Source: an uncultured Paraglaciecola sp.
GTDB taxonomy: Bacteria; Pseudomonadota; Gammaproteobacteria; Enterobacterales; Alteromonadaceae
DNA: 64,000 bases
Direction: 5' to 3'
Assembly: GCF_913058035.1 (NCBI RefSeq)
Contig: NZ_CAJXPA010000006.1
Span: forward strand, 1-64,000
Shown: piece by piece, positions 29,283 to 37,080 of the stretch
How the letters are laid out: each line of letters begins with the position of its first letter
Numbering within the stretch: the stretch's first letter is position 1
The notes under the pieces: model-generated
The model's database searches: none
The model's input: the letters and a program-made list of their open reading frames with translations, nothing else
Told to the model about the DNA's origin: nothing
Program-made: the position numbers and the translations under genes

Positions 29283-29791
29283 TCATTTAAAATCAGTGGC
29301 ATCGTTAAGACTGATATTAGCAGACATGTTTTTTGCGTATATATCGCCTGAATAATTATCAATATTTAAGCCACCCACTAGACCTTTTAGATTGATCCCA
29401 CCACAGCGATCATCAATGCAAACGTCACCACGTAAATCTTCGACCACAACATCGCCAGAAAGATCTTCAATTTTCACACGACCTTCAATGTGACTCAAAT
29501 CGATATCACCCGAGCGGTCATTTAAGGTAAGTCCATTACTAATGGCTTCAATTAAGATACCACCACACCTATCATCTATTAACAGGGCCAAAGTAGATGG
29601 CATGCGGATCCACAGGTTAATTACTGCATTGTTGTATTTGTTGTCATTAAATTGAGCAATAAGTCGCACTTTTCAGCTTCTTTTTGAAGGCTAAGAACAT
29701 AATCATCATTCAATTTTTCACCAAACGCCAAAGCAATCCCTTGGCTGAAAAGTCTTACTAACAATACTAAATAAACAATCGTTGATCTTTT
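29283..29791 (-). pseudogene. Broken DUF4097-like beta-repeat protein gene
   Basis: The leftward frame 29283-29669 reads as a beta-helix-like repeat protein with recurring DDRCGGI / NDRSGDI / EDLSGDV units, typical of DUF4097-type surface or periplasmic proteins, but has no proper N terminus. Upstream, in another frame, lies a signal peptide (KRSTIVYLVLLVRLFSQ then GIALA) and LNDDYVLSLQKEAEK. Restoring one A in the AAAA run at about 29669-29672 joins the halves as EAEK-VRLIAQF. The codon where the start should be is TAA (29792-29794), so the start is also lost. Function unknown. Confidence 0.65.
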
Positions 29792-30258: not shown

Positions 30259-33200
30259 ATGACTAAAGACTTCTGCACAAATTATAAAAATTGGCAATTT
30301 TGGATTGATCGCGGTGGCACTTTCACAGATATTGTTGCACGACATCCAGATGGCACACTGCTATGCAAAAAATACCTGTCTGAAAATCCAGAAGCCTATG
30401 ATGATGCGGCTGTATTTGGTATTAAATCAATTCTGGATATCCACCAATCTGATCCCGTGCCTGATGGACTAATCGACAAAATCAAAATGGGTACTACAGT
30501 TGCGACTAACGCTTTACTAGAACGTAAAGGTGACAGTGTGCTACTAGCGATCACAAAAGGTTTTAAAGATGCACTTGAAATTGGGTATCAAGCACGCCCT
30601 GATACCTTTGCCTTAAGGATTGAAAAACCAGATATTCTGTACACTCAGGTCGTGGAAATAAATGAAAGAGTCACTGCTAAGGGTGAAGTCTTACAAGCAC
30701 TGGATATTGAATTAACTAAAAAAGCGTTGGAAAGTGCTTTTAACCAAGGTCTAACGAGCATAGCAATAGTCCTAATGCATGGTTACCAATACAGCCAGCA
30801 TGAAAAACAGCTGATGCAGTTGGCCAAAGAGATTGGCTATAAACAAATTTCAGCCAGCCATGAAGTCAGTCCTCTACAAAAGCTAATTTCCAGAGGTGAA
30901 ACCACTTTAGTGGATGCTTATCTCACCCCTATACTATTAAGATACATACAAAATATTAGTAAAGGGCTAAATCAAAAAACGCCAGCACAATTGTTATTTA
31001 TGCAGTCATCTGGCGGCCTTACTAGCGCAGACACGTTCCGCGGGCGAGATGCGATTTTATCTGGCCCTGCAGGCGGCATAGTGGGTGCAGTGCACACCGC
31101 TAAACTAGCAGGGTTTGATAAAATCATTGGATTTGATATGGGTGGTACCTCTACCGATGTATCTCACTATGCTGGCGAGTTTGAGAAAGCCTACGAAACA
31201 CAAGTCGCGGGTGTGAGTATGCGTGTACCTATGTTACACATCCATACTGTAGCTGCCGGTGGTGGTTCAGTCTTACGTTACGAGGATGGACGTTTTCGGG
31301 TCGGCCCTGAGTCTGCAGGCGCCGTTCCAGGACCAGTATGTTATCGACGTAATGGCAAACTTGCAGTGACCGACATTAACCTGTGTTTAGGAAAAATTCA
31401 GGCTGATTTTTTCCCTAATATTTTTGGCCCAGAACAAAACCAGCCTTTAGATAAGACAAGTTCAGTACAAGCTTTTGCAGACATCGCGAAAATCATTGAC
31501 GATGGACGTTGCGCTGAAGACGTAGCGGAAGGTTTTCTAGCGATTGCTATTCAACACATGGCGCAAGCCATCAAAAAAATATCCATTGCCCGTGGTTATG
31601 ACGTGTCCAATTATGTGCTGAACTGTTTTGGTGGTGCAGGTGGACAACATGCTTGTTTGGTGGCTGAAAAGTTAGGCATTAAAACTATATTTTTACATAG
31701 TTATTCTGGCATATTATCAGCTTACGGTATGGGATTAGCCGATATACAAGTAGAGCGCCAGAAGGTAGCAAGCCCACTGATTCAAAGTGGTGACATGCAG
31801 GCCATTGATATGGCTGTTGAGCAACTTAAACTAGCTAATATGCAAGACTTAAACAGACAAGGCTTAAACAATAACCACATCACTCATCACTGTACTGCTT
31901 TACTCAAATACCTCAATACCGACACCAGCCTTAACATCCCCATAGATACTTTTGCAGCCATGCAACAAAACTTTAAAGAACAGCATGAACAACAGTTTGG
32001 CTTTAGTGGGACCGCTCTCAGTGGATCTGCCGGCAGTGCGCCTAGTAAAGCCATAGTGATTGATACTTTGATTGTTGAATCTTTTGGTGGCGCCGAAAAA
32101 ATTTCAGAAGCCAAACAAACGATAACCAGCGACGTGCCCATAAAAATACAAAACGTTAGGCAAATTTATAGCCAGGGTGAATGGTTAGAGACCCCTGTCA
32201 TAAAGCTATCCTCACTTAAATTTGGTCATGAAGTAACTGGCCCAGCTATTATTGTTGAGTCTACAGGCACCATTATTGTTGAAAAAAACTGGCGAGTGAA
32301 AGTCAATGTTAATGGCCATTTGGTGCTTCACTTTGAGAAAGTAAAAACGACATTAGACTCAGTCTCATCTTTATCTTTATCCTTACAACAAAACACGCTA
32401 GGTAAGGCAGACCCAGTCACACTAGAGCTATTTAACAGTGCTTTTATGAGCATAGCGCAGCAAATGGGCATAGTGCTGCGTAATACGTCACAGTCAGTTA
32501 ATGTTAAAGAACGTTTAGACTTTTCCTGTGCCATTTTTGATGCCACTGGGAACTTGATTGCCAACGCACCGCATGTGCCGGTGCATTTAGGCTCAATGGA
32601 TGCCAGTGTCAAAGTGATTATTAATGGTACTCAATCCATCAATGCAGGCGACGTATTTGTACAAAATAACCCCTACAACGGTGGCTCTCACCTACCCGAC
32701 ATTACAGTTATTACCCCAGTATTTGACTCGGCTAACGCTAATATTTTATTTTATGTCGCCAGCCGTGCCCACCATGAAGACGTAGGAGGTATTGCACCGG
32801 GTTCCATGTCTTCGCTGGCCACAGATATCCACCAAGAAGGCATATTACTAGACGGCGTAAAACTAATTGAACAAGGGCATTTTCAAACTGAGCGTATTGA
32901 AAAGCTTTTTTCTTCAGGTGATTATCCAGCTAGAAATATTGCCCAAAATATGGCTGATTTAATGGCGCAAACCGCTGCTAATAAAACAGGTGTAAATGAA
33001 TTACTGAAGCTGGTCGAGCAGCATAGTCTTAAAACCGTTTATGCTTATATGCAACATATCCAAGACAGCGCCAAAACCTCAGTACAAAAAGTGCTGGCTA
33101 GATTACAAGATGGTGAGTTTAGTTACCCGTTAGAATCGGGTGCCACCATTGTTGTTAAAATCATTATTGATAAAACCAAATTAAAGGCATGTATTGATTT

Positions 33201-33954
33201 TACAGGCACAAGTGAGCAACAAAACAATAATTTGAATGCCCCAAAAGCCATAACTCAAGCTGCTGTGATGTATGTATTTAGATGTTTGGTTAACGATGAT
33301 ATCCCGCTTAACGCAGGCTGCATGCAAGCGCTAGATATTATTGTGCCTGAAGGCTCGTTACTTAATCCATATTTCCCGGCGGCGGTAGTAGCAGGTAATG
33401 TTGAAACTAGCCAAGCGGTGACCAATGCGCTATTTGCTGCCTTAGGTGTATTAGGTTCAAGCCAAGGCACTATGAATAACCTCACCTTTGGAAATGAACG
33501 TTATCAGTATTACGAAACAATTTGTTCCGGCAGTCCTGCGGGAGTTATGCCTTCAGGGGAAGGTTTTAATGGTGTAGCCGCAGTGCATACCCATATGACA
33601 AATACCCGTATGACCGACCCCGAAATACTAGAGCAACGTTACCCGGTGATCCTCAAAGAATTCAGAATTGACCGCAATTCAGGTGGCAAAGGTAAATACA
33701 ATGCAGGAGACGGTATTACTCGCACCATTACCTTTTTAGAAGATATGCAGTGCTCGATTTTATCAGGACACCGAATAACCCCACCCTTCGGTCTTAACGG
33801 CGGTGAAGCGGGACGGATTGGACGCAACTGGTTAACAAAACCCAACGGCGAGCATCAATATTTAGCAGGATGTGAGCATACTACGGTTAACGCTGGGGAC
33901 AGTATATCTATTCAATCACCCACTGGTGGAGGGTTTGGAAAAGCCGATGGGTGA
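30259..33954 (+). CDS. ATP-dependent 5-oxoprolinase (fused HyuA-HyuB type)
   Basis: A 1231-residue fusion of the hydantoinase/oxoprolinase A part (about 1-690) and B part (about 715-1230), the eukaryotic-OPLAH-like layout. It should open 5-oxo-L-proline to glutamate with ATP. Seen: the N-terminal phosphate-binding [24 protein letters not shown] and [17 protein letters not shown] in part [33 protein letters not shown] and the C-terminal SPTGGGFG in part B. Hydantoinase activity is an alternative. The following Nramp-like gene starts 44 bp after its stop, so the two form a likely operon. Confidence 0.88.
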
Positions 33955-33998
33955 TGTACCCGCCTATCTCATAATAAGAAACAAGTAAGTTAAAACCT

Positions 33999-35216
33999 AT
34001 GTTAAAACGTATTAAAAACATCGGCCCAGGTGCCTTAATTGCGGCTGCGTTTATTGGCCCAGGAACCGTTACTGCTTGCACATTGGCAGGAGCAAATTAC
34101 GGCTACACCCTGCTGTGGGCTCTACTGTTTGCTACTGTCGCCACCATTATTTTGCAAGAAATGTCTGCTCGATTGGGGTTAGTCACCCAACAAGGTTTAG
34201 GCGAAACACTGCGAATTATGCTGAATCAGTCTGTCTGGAAATGGCCACTATTTAGTTTGATTATGGTGGCTTTGTATCTGGGTAACGCAGCTTACGAAGC
34301 CGGCAATTTATCAGGCGCAGCATTAGGCATTCAAGCACTAACAGATGAAAGACGGTCGCTTTACCGCATTTCTGTTATCGTAATTTCGCTGTTAGCGGGT
34401 ATTTTATTGTGGCGCGGTTCATATAAACAGATTGAACGTATGTTACTTGTGTTAGTGGCGATTATGGCACTAGCATTTATTGCCACTTTTATCTCAGTAG
34501 GACCAGACTTAACGGCGCTTTTTAAAGGACTTACCACACCCAACATTCCAGACGGTAGCCTATTAACCGTTATCGCTCTTATTGGTACAACAGTCGTGCC
34601 CTACAACTTGTTTTTACATGCCTCTGCGGTAAAAGCTAAGTGGTCATCGATTAACGATTTAAAACATGCTCGTGCAGATACTGCTACCGCCATTGGACTA
34701 GGTGGTTTGATTACAATATTGATAGCTTCCACCGCCGCAGCCAGCATCTTTGGCAGCGGTTTGAACATATCAGGGGCCGGCGATATGGCGACACAATTGG
34801 AGCCACTATTCGGTTCACTTTCAAAAACCATGTTAGGCATGGGCTTTTTTGCAGCGGGTTTAAGCAGTTCAATCACTGCCCCTTTAGCTACCGCCTATGC
34901 AGTGACAGAAATATTAGGGATCAAAGGCGGCACTTCGTCGCGAGTCTTCAAACTAATTGCCCTAAGTGTAATTTTTAGTGGTGCATCCTTTGCGTTAACC
35001 GGCATCAAACCCATAAGTATTATACTGACCGCACAATTTGCTAACGGATTATTATTGCCTATTATTGCCATGTTTTTGCTGGTTGTGATGAACCAGAAAA
35101 AACAGTTAGGGCAATACGTGAATAAATGGTTAGGCAATACGTTGGGTGCAATAGTCGTGATAGTGACTGCAGGGTTAGGTATCCGGTTGATAATGAGCGC
35201 TACTGGGGTGCTTTGA
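33999..35216 (+). CDS. Nramp-family transporter lacking canonical metal motifs
   Basis: A 405-residue protein with about 11 hydrophobic helices and the Nramp/SLC11 fold: TM1 begins IGPGALIAAAFIGPGTVTA, followed by GANYGYTLLW and QEMSARLG. The family's metal-binding motif DPGN is GPGT here (20-23), and the TM6 motif MPH is VPY (200-202, in GTTVVPYNLFLHAS). The residues that bind Mn2+/Fe2+ and the TM6 His are thus missing. It lies 44 bp after the 5-oxoprolinase. Family membership is clear; the substrate is inferred not to be the usual divalent metals and may be 5-oxoproline or a related acid. Confidence 0.85.
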   Translation: MLKRIKNIGPGALIAAAFIGPGTVTACTLAGANYGYTLLWALLFATVATIILQEMSARLGLVTQQGLGETLRIMLNQSVWKWPLFSLIMVALYLGNAAYEAGNLSGAALGIQALTDERRSLYRISVIVISLLAGILLWRGSYKQIERMLLVLVAIMALAFIATFISVGPDLTALFKGLTTPNIPDGSLLTVIALIGTTVVPYNLFLHASAVKAKWSSINDLKHARADTATAIGLGGLITILIASTAAASIFGSGLNISGAGDMATQLEPLFGSLSKTMLGMGFFAAGLSSSITAPLATAYAVTEILGIKGGTSSRVFKLIALSVIFSGASFALTGIKPISIILTAQFANGLLLPIIAMFLLVVMNQKKQLGQYVNKWLGNTLGAIVVIVTAGLGIRLIMSATGVL

Positions 35217-35297: not shown

Positions 35298-35363
35298 GGG
35301 AGTGGGAGTGGGATTGGGAGTGGAAGTGGGAATGGGAATGAGAATGGGAATGGGAATGAGACT
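35298..35363 (+). repeat. G-rich hexanucleotide microsatellite (11 units), G-quadruplex motif
   Basis: Eleven 6-bp units of the form GGGAGT/GGGAAT (some GGGATT, GGAAGT, GAGAAT). The first four units give G3-N3-G3-N3-G3-N3-G3, a textbook intramolecular quadruplex pattern on the plus strand. It starts about 80 bp after the stop of the Nramp-like gene. Confidence 0.95.
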
Positions 35364-35976: not shown

Positions 35977-36676
35977 TTATCTTGCCAGTATGTCGACTAT
36001 CTCAGAGTAATCTTTGAGGGGAAATATGATACTTTTAGGCATATTTTGTTTTATCGACTTTAATCGCTTTTTAATGCCGGTGTGATTTGAAGTTTCTAGG
36101 GTCCTCGCCATTTTGGTTCGAATAGGATTAAGGTCAACATAAGCCATACAGGACAGTAATGCAGCTTCATCTAACAACGCTTGAGATTTAAACCTTCCTT
36201 CCCAGAACCTGCCCTACATTCATCCTCTTTGTTGGCTTGCCGGGCAATGTACTCATTTAGATTTCGCATCAGCCAGCTAATGTCATGAAACGTCTGCGAT
36301 ATTCGGTAATGGTGTCATCTAAGGTGAGCTGCTGGCCTTGGCTTATGGGAACTCATCTGGCAAACATTTGGTTGAGTTATGTGCCTTTGTGTAGGCGATG
36401 CCAACGCTAAACAACGTCATAGTCTGACCACTCTTGGGTTTACTTCACATCCTCATGCAACACAACATGTACGTGATTAACCATCACCGCATAGGCACCC
36501 TAATCTATGGCGAACACGGAAGATAAAAATAACAATCATTTTTAACCAGGCCGCAGCGGTGTTAATAGCTATATCCAGAATAATTATCTACACCCCACAA
36601 AAAAAGCGCCTTACGCAACGGGAAACGCGAGATAATTAGGAAGATCCAATCAACTAATTTGACAACTACGAGGTTG
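35977..36676 (-). pseudogene. Relic of a Y1 (HUH) transposase, IS200-like/RAYT type
   Basis: Read leftwards, the decayed frame gives in order QPRSCQIS (36676), a damaged segment ending DNYSGYSY, then YAVMVNHVHVVLHEDVK with the HUH motif H-V-H (about 36464-36475). EWSDYDVV, RWHRLHKGT, QGQQLTLDDTITEYRRRF, RQANKEDE and the still open last part [20 protein letters not shown] (ending 35977) follow. This is the layout of single-domain Y1 transposases. At least six in-frame stops and frameshifts break it. No REP-like hairpins or left/right ends were recognised. Confidence 0.8.
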
Positions 36677-37011: not shown

Positions 37012-37080
37012 TTTTATTTCTATTTTTATTTTTATTTTTATTTTTATTTTTATTTTTATTTTTATTTTTATTTTTATTTA
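37012..37080 (+). repeat. TTTTTA hexanucleotide tract (about 10 units) upstream of msrB
   Basis: A nearly pure run of TTTTTA units from about 37012 to 37080, ending 58 bp before the msrB start codon. A plus-strand frame through it reads (FY)n, which is an artefact of the repeat. Confidence 0.95.

Follow-up and report, generated by a model that had tools for sequence, protein, structure and literature searches.

The window analysed here is a stretch of 64,000 nucleotides from an uncultured Paraglaciecola sp. (contig NZ_CAJXPA010000006.1). It contains two neighbouring genes, one for a fused 5-oxoprolinase-type enzyme resembling OplAH and one for a carrier related to the Nramp metal transporters (Table 1). 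An earlier note on this DNA had described a 1231-residue fused 5-oxoprolinase-type gene that is followed after 44 bp by an Nramp-like protein, and both open reading frames are present as it described. From the genomic context we infer, with a probability of about 0.8, that the two genes form a unit for the uptake and use of 5-oxoproline (pyroglutamate). This reading builds on the observed carrier clade, its residues, its linkage to two types of enzyme, and the exchange of these enzymes around a constant carrier, together with a predicted fold; the substrate, the direction of transport and the enzyme activity would follow from these observations.

Since promoter- and terminator-like sites between positions 29600 and 37200 were no more frequent than in shuffled sequences, the operon is deduced from gene spacing and synteny. 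Within the window genome (348 contigs), a separate second Hydantoinase_B gene was found on a different contig, and there was neither a match to PxpA nor a second Nramp above the family cut-off.

Table 1 Features of the 5-oxoprolinase-type enzyme and carrier genes in the window (TM, transmembrane helix).
Feature	Position	Strand	Basis
Fused 5-oxoprolinase-type enzyme, OplAH-like, 1231 aa	30259..33954	+	Open reading frame, Pfam, match to 7hk5
Hydant_A_N domain, residues 14-193	30298..30837	+	Pfam
Hydantoinase_A domain, residues 212-499	30892..31755	+	Pfam
Hydant_A_C domain, residues 513-694	31795..32340	+	Pfam
Hydantoinase_B domain, residues 718-1228	32410..33942	+	Pfam
44-bp intergenic gap between enzyme and carrier	33955..33998	+	
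Carrier related to Nramps, 405 aa, member of the GPGT/VPY clade; proposed importer of 5-oxoproline	33999..35216	+	
Unwound segment of TM1, IGPGT at residues 19-23 (metal Nramps: DPGN)	34053..34067	+	
Segment of TM3, YEAGN at residues 99-103, with the clade signature Y/F99, G102, N103	34293..34307	+	
Unwound segment of TM6, VPY at residues 200-202 (metal Nramps: MPH)	34596..34604	+	

The fused enzyme and the Nramp-related carrier

Pfam places Hydant_A_N, Hydantoinase_A, Hydant_A_C and Hydantoinase_B of the window enzyme on a single chain, and the protein has the joined HyuA and HyuB halves and the length (approximately 1200-1300 amino acids) that characterise a fused OplAH. The same one-chain domain order A_N-A-A_C-B occurs in OPLAH and N-methylhydantoinase, and the alignment with the N-methylhydantoinase 7hk5 spans residues 15-1228 of the window enzyme. 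The five NCBIfam models listed for the enzyme all scored below their cut-offs. The enzyme is a putative ATP-dependent 5-oxoprolinase, an assignment that receives indirect support from its mutual exclusion with PxpA in the genus (see below).

The carrier belongs to the Nramp family (PF01566; 287.1 bits against a cut-off of 29.8, covering profile positions 2-356 of 357). When aligned with Deinococcus radiodurans MntH, it reads FIGPGTV instead of YMDPGNF in TM1 and GTTVVPYN instead of GATVMPHV in TM6. The alignment confirms the earlier observation that GPGT and VPY stand in place of DPGN and MPH, the motifs of canonical metal importers, and the metal-site residues Asp, Asn, Met and His are all altered. 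With 150 and 99.8 bits, respectively, the carrier remained below the cut-offs of the NCBIfam MntH model PRK00701 (430) and of TIGR01197 (272.5).

An AlphaFold2 model of the carrier, for which the window sequence was combined with those of 45 loci of the genome_contigs sample described below (46 in total), had a mean predicted local distance difference test score of 88.5 and a predicted template modelling score of 0.89. The earlier note had suggested modelling the TM1/TM6 site; in the model, the helices break at residues 19-20 (TM1) and 200-202 (TM6), which would place the changed residues at the substrate site of a LeuT fold. The best structural matches were metal Nramps and the magnesium carrier EleNRMT (Z 35-49), with a YcsG model in the same range (39.6), followed by AdiC, AgcS, SLC7A10, the potassium carrier KimA and the choline carrier CHT1 (Z 29-30), and by ApcT (27.7). 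D. radiodurans MntH (6d91; Z 48.6, root-mean-square deviation 2.5 over 386 residues) shares the fold at 25% sequence identity. EleNRMT (Z 46.9, 28% identity) likewise lacks DPGN and MPH, but has NDAG in TM1 and APW in TM6 where the window carrier has GPGT and VPY. A common fold, however, shows no function.

The GPGT/VPY clade

We defined the clade of the window carrier with a profile made from nine relatives and a dividing line of 340 bits. The profile scores split the proteins into 115 clade members with at least 348 bits and 55 other Nramps with at most 283 bits; the window's own locus is outside the 115. One protein with a GPGT motif and no enzyme nearby (L022, 283 bits) was placed among the 55 because it scored below the line. 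From at least 578 hits, the genome_contigs sample takes the 80 best; it includes the loci of G040 and G041, the centres of two phylum samples, which were picked as clade holders. Duplicate places (L034, L036, L043, L166, L186) and short repeats of genomes present elsewhere (L001-L017, L130-L163) were dropped. Frames shorter than 300 amino acids were left out, hence a clade member with one TAG (L188) and a remnant (L047) have no row. The control Nramps of the class and Actinomycetota samples are the top-scoring non-clade rows, in order; those of the Bacillota are 13 non-clade places from a longer list, not strictly in order.

Identity of the clade members to the window carrier ranged from 39 to 95% (n = 115). 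Tyr202 was present in all of them, and GPG, Gly102-Asn103 and His207 were each conserved in 114. Neither the TM1 pair Asp and Asn nor the TM6 pair Met and His occurred in any clade member, compared to both canonical metal pairs in 14 of the 55 other Nramps, and the canonical Asp/His/Glu residues of the proton path are missing in the clade. In a tree of 113 carrier proteins, support for the clade versus other Nramps was weak (17), and was 94 with the borderline row L170 set outside. The separation of the clade is based on score and motif more than on the tree.

The clade occurs in Pseudomonadota, Bacteroidota, Bacillota, Actinomycetota, Acidobacteriota, one SAR324 bin and haloarchaeal plasmids. 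Its distribution is patchy, with carriers in 7 of 101 genomes of the Terrisporobacter phylum (Bacillota here; centre genome included), in 7 of 119 genomes of the Streptomyces phylum (centre included; one of the seven with an internal TAG), and in 2 of 229 genomes of the window's class (known-positive centre genome included). No clade carrier was found in a scan of viral_contigs. At the ten plasmid loci inspected, the clade members are all annotated as divalent metal transporters.

The clade has the set of substitutions tested for Cellier's 'orphan' outgroup of Slc11 (PMC10606218; this and the following sources are cited from their accessible parts) and by this set matches that outgroup. The published substitutions are Asp to Gly and Asn to Thr in helix 1, Y-N plus four Gly in helix 3, V-Y and Ala to Thr in helix 6, and Ala, Asn and Gly in helix 10. 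They correspond to clade residues Gly20 and Thr23; Tyr99/Asn103 and Gly95/102/106/110; Val200/Tyr202 and Thr197; and Ala345/Asn349/Gly350, respectively, as matched by eye to published residues, not sequences. The outgroup was further treated in PMC9606685, and a 2014 paper considered that it may be seen as connecting metal carriers with carriers whose substrates are not metals (PMC4072509). The accessible texts assign it no substrate, whereas we propose 5-oxoproline for the clade. According to a 2026 preprint, MntG falls within a 'G-motif 3' group of Nramp-related proteins, and the groups beyond the NRMT-like and MntG-holding ones are entirely uncharacterised (PMC12873925). In literature that mostly did not cover subscription journals, we found no paper that connects OplAH or hydantoinase genes with the GPGT clade or with Nramps of any kind; the accessible parts of two gallium-resistance papers that name both terms draw no link between them.

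Linkage to 5-oxoprolinase genes

A 5-oxoprolinase-type system was present within 5 kb of 82 of the 115 clade members, compared to 1 of the 55 other Nramps, and this one (in L184) adjoins a clade member's own HyuAB. Here, PxpABC was called from at least two of pxpA, pxpB and pxpC, and for tree labels from one or more pxp genes. The linked clade members split into 51 with PxpABC and 31 with OplAH or HyuA/HyuB. Among loci with full 5-kb flanks on both sides, the contrast was 67/91 to 0/39 (Fisher's exact test, p about 7e-17, with relatives treated as independent). The earlier note had staked its interpretation on an enrichment of the GPGT/VPY clade beside two unrelated types of 5-oxoprolinase, and the counts bear this out.

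In the taxonomy-drawn samples, five of the six clade members from Bacillota had pxp genes and one had none, versus 0/14 for the other Nramps. The five from Actinomycetota comprised three with HyuAB, one with pxp genes and one with a single pxp gene (others, 1/14), and the only member from the window's class lay at a contig edge without an enzyme (others, 0/19). These samples are small, yet they agree with the linkage. On representatives, the pxp families were verified with Pfam (LamB_YcsF, CT_C_D, CT_A_B); PxpA and PxpB passed the 5-oxoprolinase models of NCBIfam, and PxpC passed a broader domain model but did not reach the equivalog cut-off. The carrier lies upstream or downstream of the enzyme genes or is divergent from them, and the type of enzyme partner switches at least five times on the carrier tree.

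A gene for a DUF2891 protein occurred within 5 kb of 22 of the 115 clade carriers versus 0 of the 55 others. At 21 of these loci it accompanied pxp genes, and at one, L038 from this genus, OplAH. The AlphaFold2 model of DUF2891 matched the solved structure of CJ0554 (Z 40), and next a barrel of the cellobiose-epimerase/glucuronyl-hydrolase type (Z about 16), with complement C3 domains at the same level. The Campylobacter jejuni operon cj0552-4 encodes DUF969, DUF979 and DUF2891, and in a preliminary test a mutant lost growth on 5-oxoproline (PMC12795558). Examples of the gene are L090:8806-9984, the only one on which Pfam was run, and L038:7257-8381.

Some further genes were observed near clade carriers. 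On a haloarchaeal plasmid, the gene after HyuA-HyuB (L018:13863-14552) matches Pfam Amdase; the genes in this position are annotated as Asp/Glu racemase on L018, L025 and L028, and as maleate cis-trans isomerase on L026. In 8 of the 9 haloarchaeal loci inspected, the gene for a CopG-type regulator lies ahead of the carrier. At 12 OplAH-linked loci representing 10 distinct places (L033, L034, L038-L043, L052, L057, L059, L064), a regulator of the winged-helix type (HTH_27; Pfam on L040 only) is encoded within approximately 5 kb of the carrier; none was noticed beside the window pair.

Enzyme exchange in the genus and order

Twenty-two genomes of the window's genus were searched for the carrier, fused OplAH and PxpA. 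The carrier adjoined fused OplAH in 12 genomes, all of which were without PxpA. In three others it was located away from an enzyme, and these three had PxpA and no fused OplAH. Of the seven carrier-free genomes, four contained PxpA and three neither enzyme. The genus genomes G003, G014 and G019, which are 99-100% complete, gave no match to the carrier at all. Fused OplAH (12 genomes) and PxpA (7 genomes) never occurred together (hypergeometric p = 7e-4, uncorrected), and each of the 15 carrier-holding genomes had one or the other. One PxpA-holding genus member has a carrier remnant with two stops (G005:C123:15961-16281).

Where carriers had no enzyme nearby, PxpA or a Hydantoinase_B gene was found elsewhere in 25 of the 26 genomes examined, the exception being a 2.1-Mb bin (G043); this set covers a subset of such loci, five of them with short flanks, and G015 and G042 are apparently the same genome. 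As a background, 9 of 16 carrier-free genomes of the order outside the genus contain PxpA or a Hydantoinase_B gene, and these nine include two with fused OplAH.

Relation to YcsG and PxpT

The earlier note considered an Nramp-type 5-oxoproline carrier to be undescribed and took Bacillus subtilis YcsG for an instance of the same transporter. Its first claim is superseded by a 2026 report in which PxpT and PxpABC were required for growth of Corynebacterium glutamicum on 5-oxoproline, and by earlier work cited there, in which deletion of ycsG ended 5-oxoproline use in B. subtilis (PMC13274462). The authors deduced uptake and did not exclude metal transport. According to the same report, PxpT is 50% identical to YcsG, and the operon order in Clostridioides difficile is pxpAGBC.

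The second claim is probably incorrect. In a structure alignment over 385 residues, the YcsG model (PDB 9a52, assigned by its entry title) was 20% identical to the window model. This value is no higher than those of metal Nramps (19-26%) and below that of EleNRMT (28%), and it contrasts with 39-95% inside the clade. We therefore rejected the window carrier as a YcsG/PxpT orthologue: it has the adjacent 5-oxoprolinase genes, as do the 82 linked clade members, but by model alignment not the high identity to YcsG. YcsG probably represents another Nramp-related group. The earlier interpretation largely stands in substance, with regard to the clade enrichment, but not in its novelty and probably not in equating the carrier with YcsG.

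A group that presumably is of the YcsG/PxpT/PxpG type was found in PxpA neighbourhoods of Bacillota, where we inspected 20 further loci out of 42 PxpA places found. Eight of the 20 had a very divergent Nramp-like gene within 5 kb of pxp genes (in one case a short frame), with clade-profile scores of 31-77 bits. The seven full-length proteins (two of them 99% alike) were 19-25% identical to four clade members. In common with the clade they have IGPG (TM1), Tyr (TM6) and GN (TM3), but they read GPGF/VGGY where the clade has GPGT/VPY, and a profile comparison aligned 297 columns of the two groups with a probability of 98.8. The presumed affiliation follows from the identity to 9a52 and from the gene order pxpA-carrier-pxpB-pxpC at L255 and L256, which is that of C. 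difficile; gene order alone is not decisive, because the clade loci L164 and L165 share it. Two Nramps with GAGD in TM1 (L184, L208) were also considered as the YcsG type and rejected, as their profile found no other member above 150 bits in the loci searched and none at the PxpA loci L253-L272. The GAGD protein of L184 (4396-5724), from a Streptomyces-phylum genome, adjoins HyuAB and a GPGT carrier and is 38% identical to the one in L208.

Like the window, the PxpT/YcsG/PxpG group combines an Nramp-type carrier with 5-oxoprolinase genes. It differs from the window clade in sequence (approximately 20% identity; GPGF/VGGY in the presumed YcsG-like group) and in its partners, PxpABC being the only one reported in the accessible text (PMC13274462), whereas the window clade is also linked to OplAH and HyuAB.

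Proposed function and alternative explanations

Import of 5-oxoproline is the best reading of the carrier mainly because the unrelated PxpABC and OplAH/HyuAB share this substrate. As support we count the linkage, the exchange of partners, the exclusion in the genus, the enzymes elsewhere in the genome, the second Nramp-related group and DUF2891. By analogy, the genetics of PxpT may be added, although PxpT probably belongs to a different Nramp-related group. In the proposed mechanism, the carrier would import 5-oxoproline via its LeuT-fold site, where the GPGT turn of TM1 and the Tyr of TM6 would take the place of the metal ligands, and the fused ATP-dependent enzyme would then open the lactam to yield glutamate. 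APC amino-acid carriers bind carboxylates through backbone amides, and our guess is that the carboxylate of 5-oxoproline might be bound by those of the GPG turn. Transport might be coupled to an ion gradient, which is likewise a guess.

Several observations weigh against this reading. For 31 of the 115 clade members no 5-oxoprolinase-type gene was found within 5 kb, and for two only a single pxp gene. Three order-level relatives lack the carrier, two of them with fused OplAH (G026, G038) and one with a Hydantoinase_B frame that is unfused or partial (G039). The 80 genome_contigs loci lean toward the query, as they are the best-scoring of the hits. Other points of this kind favour one of two alternatives.

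First, the carrier might import a related cyclic amide, be it hydantoin, its N-methyl derivative or a different lactam, in which case the matching ATP-dependent amidase would be the fused enzyme. The nearest solved structure by sequence is indeed the fused N-methylhydantoinase 7hk5 (E = 2e-124). Moreover, the haloarchaeal partners and three of the five actinobacterial ones are split HyuA and HyuB, some with an Amdase/racemase-like gene, and for this reason hydantoin or another lactam is possible at these loci; HyuAB of the haloarchaeal plasmids could handle D-5-oxoproline or hydantoin. Yet carriers of the same clade lie beside PxpABC-type genes at 51 loci, whose PxpA and PxpB representatives pass 5-oxoprolinase models, and the mutual exclusion of fused OplAH and PxpA within the genus also argues against a different substrate. 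For the window pair, we consider a cyclic amide other than 5-oxoproline unlikely.

Second, the carrier could still be a manganese importer whose metal serves the adjacent enzyme or nitrogen metabolism, as has been claimed for YcsG, renamed MntG, and for MumT of Acinetobacter baumannii. Higher ycsG expression raised cellular Mn, an mntH mntA ycsG triple mutant needed an extra ycsG copy, and the earlier 5-oxoproline data were said to be possibly due to polar effects (PMC10448178). MumT, a claimed Mn importer from an operon named for urea metabolism (PMC5050338, PMC11796373), was reported to aid Mn accumulation (PMC5050338). In addition, the window carrier is the only Nramp above the family cut-off in its genome and passes NF037982, a broad NCBI model named 'divalent metal transporter' (110 bits, cut-off 50). 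However, no clade member retains either metal-binding pair, and a common requirement for metal leaves the swap between the unrelated PxpABC and OplAH unexplained. Furthermore, carrier-free members of the genus exist, and YcsG appears to belong to another group. Metal import by the window carrier therefore seems quite improbable to us. Finally, an export or recycling unit that expels 5-oxoproline or glutamate arising spontaneously in the cell is very improbable: 5-oxoproline does form spontaneously from glutamate and glutamine (PMC13274462), but export would be pointless because the enzyme converts 5-oxoproline to glutamate, and deletion of pxpT, probably of the other group, abolished growth on external 5-oxoproline (PMC13274462).

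While Nramp-type 5-oxoproline carriers had already been reported (PxpT, YcsG), and the clade has appeared in print, in the sources accessible to us, only as an outgroup, what our comparison adds is a separate, widespread Nramp-related clade for which gene context argues strongly for a 5-oxoproline assignment, with a second enzyme partner. In the structural literature accessible to us, such proteins are treated as a function-less outgroup of a major family of metal transporters. The 5-oxoproline assignment, which is based on two unrelated enzymes, offers a function that can be tested. It also has a bearing on how Nramps gained metal transport, and on the published dispute over YcsG, in which manganese and 5-oxoproline are the competing substrates. 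Tentatively, and at somewhat less than even odds, several deep groups of PF01566 might carry small organic acids, namely 5-oxoproline in the GPGT and GPGF groups and uronic or sugar acids in a GTGS group. If so, metal transport with DPGN and MPH would be derived, and YcsG would have the Mn roles claimed for it only secondarily.

Additional Nramp-like genes and the flank of the locus

Two further Nramp-like genes, with GTGS in TM1, were observed in the window's genus (L048:3744-13318 in G007 and L049:6937-16716 in G006). Their neighbours encode UxuA mannonate dehydratase, a mannitol-dehydrogenase-family enzyme, an alginate lyase and an RbsD/FucU protein (Pfam on L048 only), and at L206 a GTGS Nramp adjoins an open reading frame whose start, by eye, resembles that of the UxuA frame. 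From these neighbours, the GTGS Nramps may carry uronic or sugar acids.

Downstream of the carrier in the window, short open reading frame fragments at 35977-36600 (e.g. 35977-36177, minus strand) resemble, by eye, a decayed REP-associated transposase. They are located within a 1.9-kb stretch without long open reading frames, which lies between two simple repeats, likewise noted by eye, namely a GGGA(R)T-like run at 35299-35361 and a TTTTTA run at 37018-37078.

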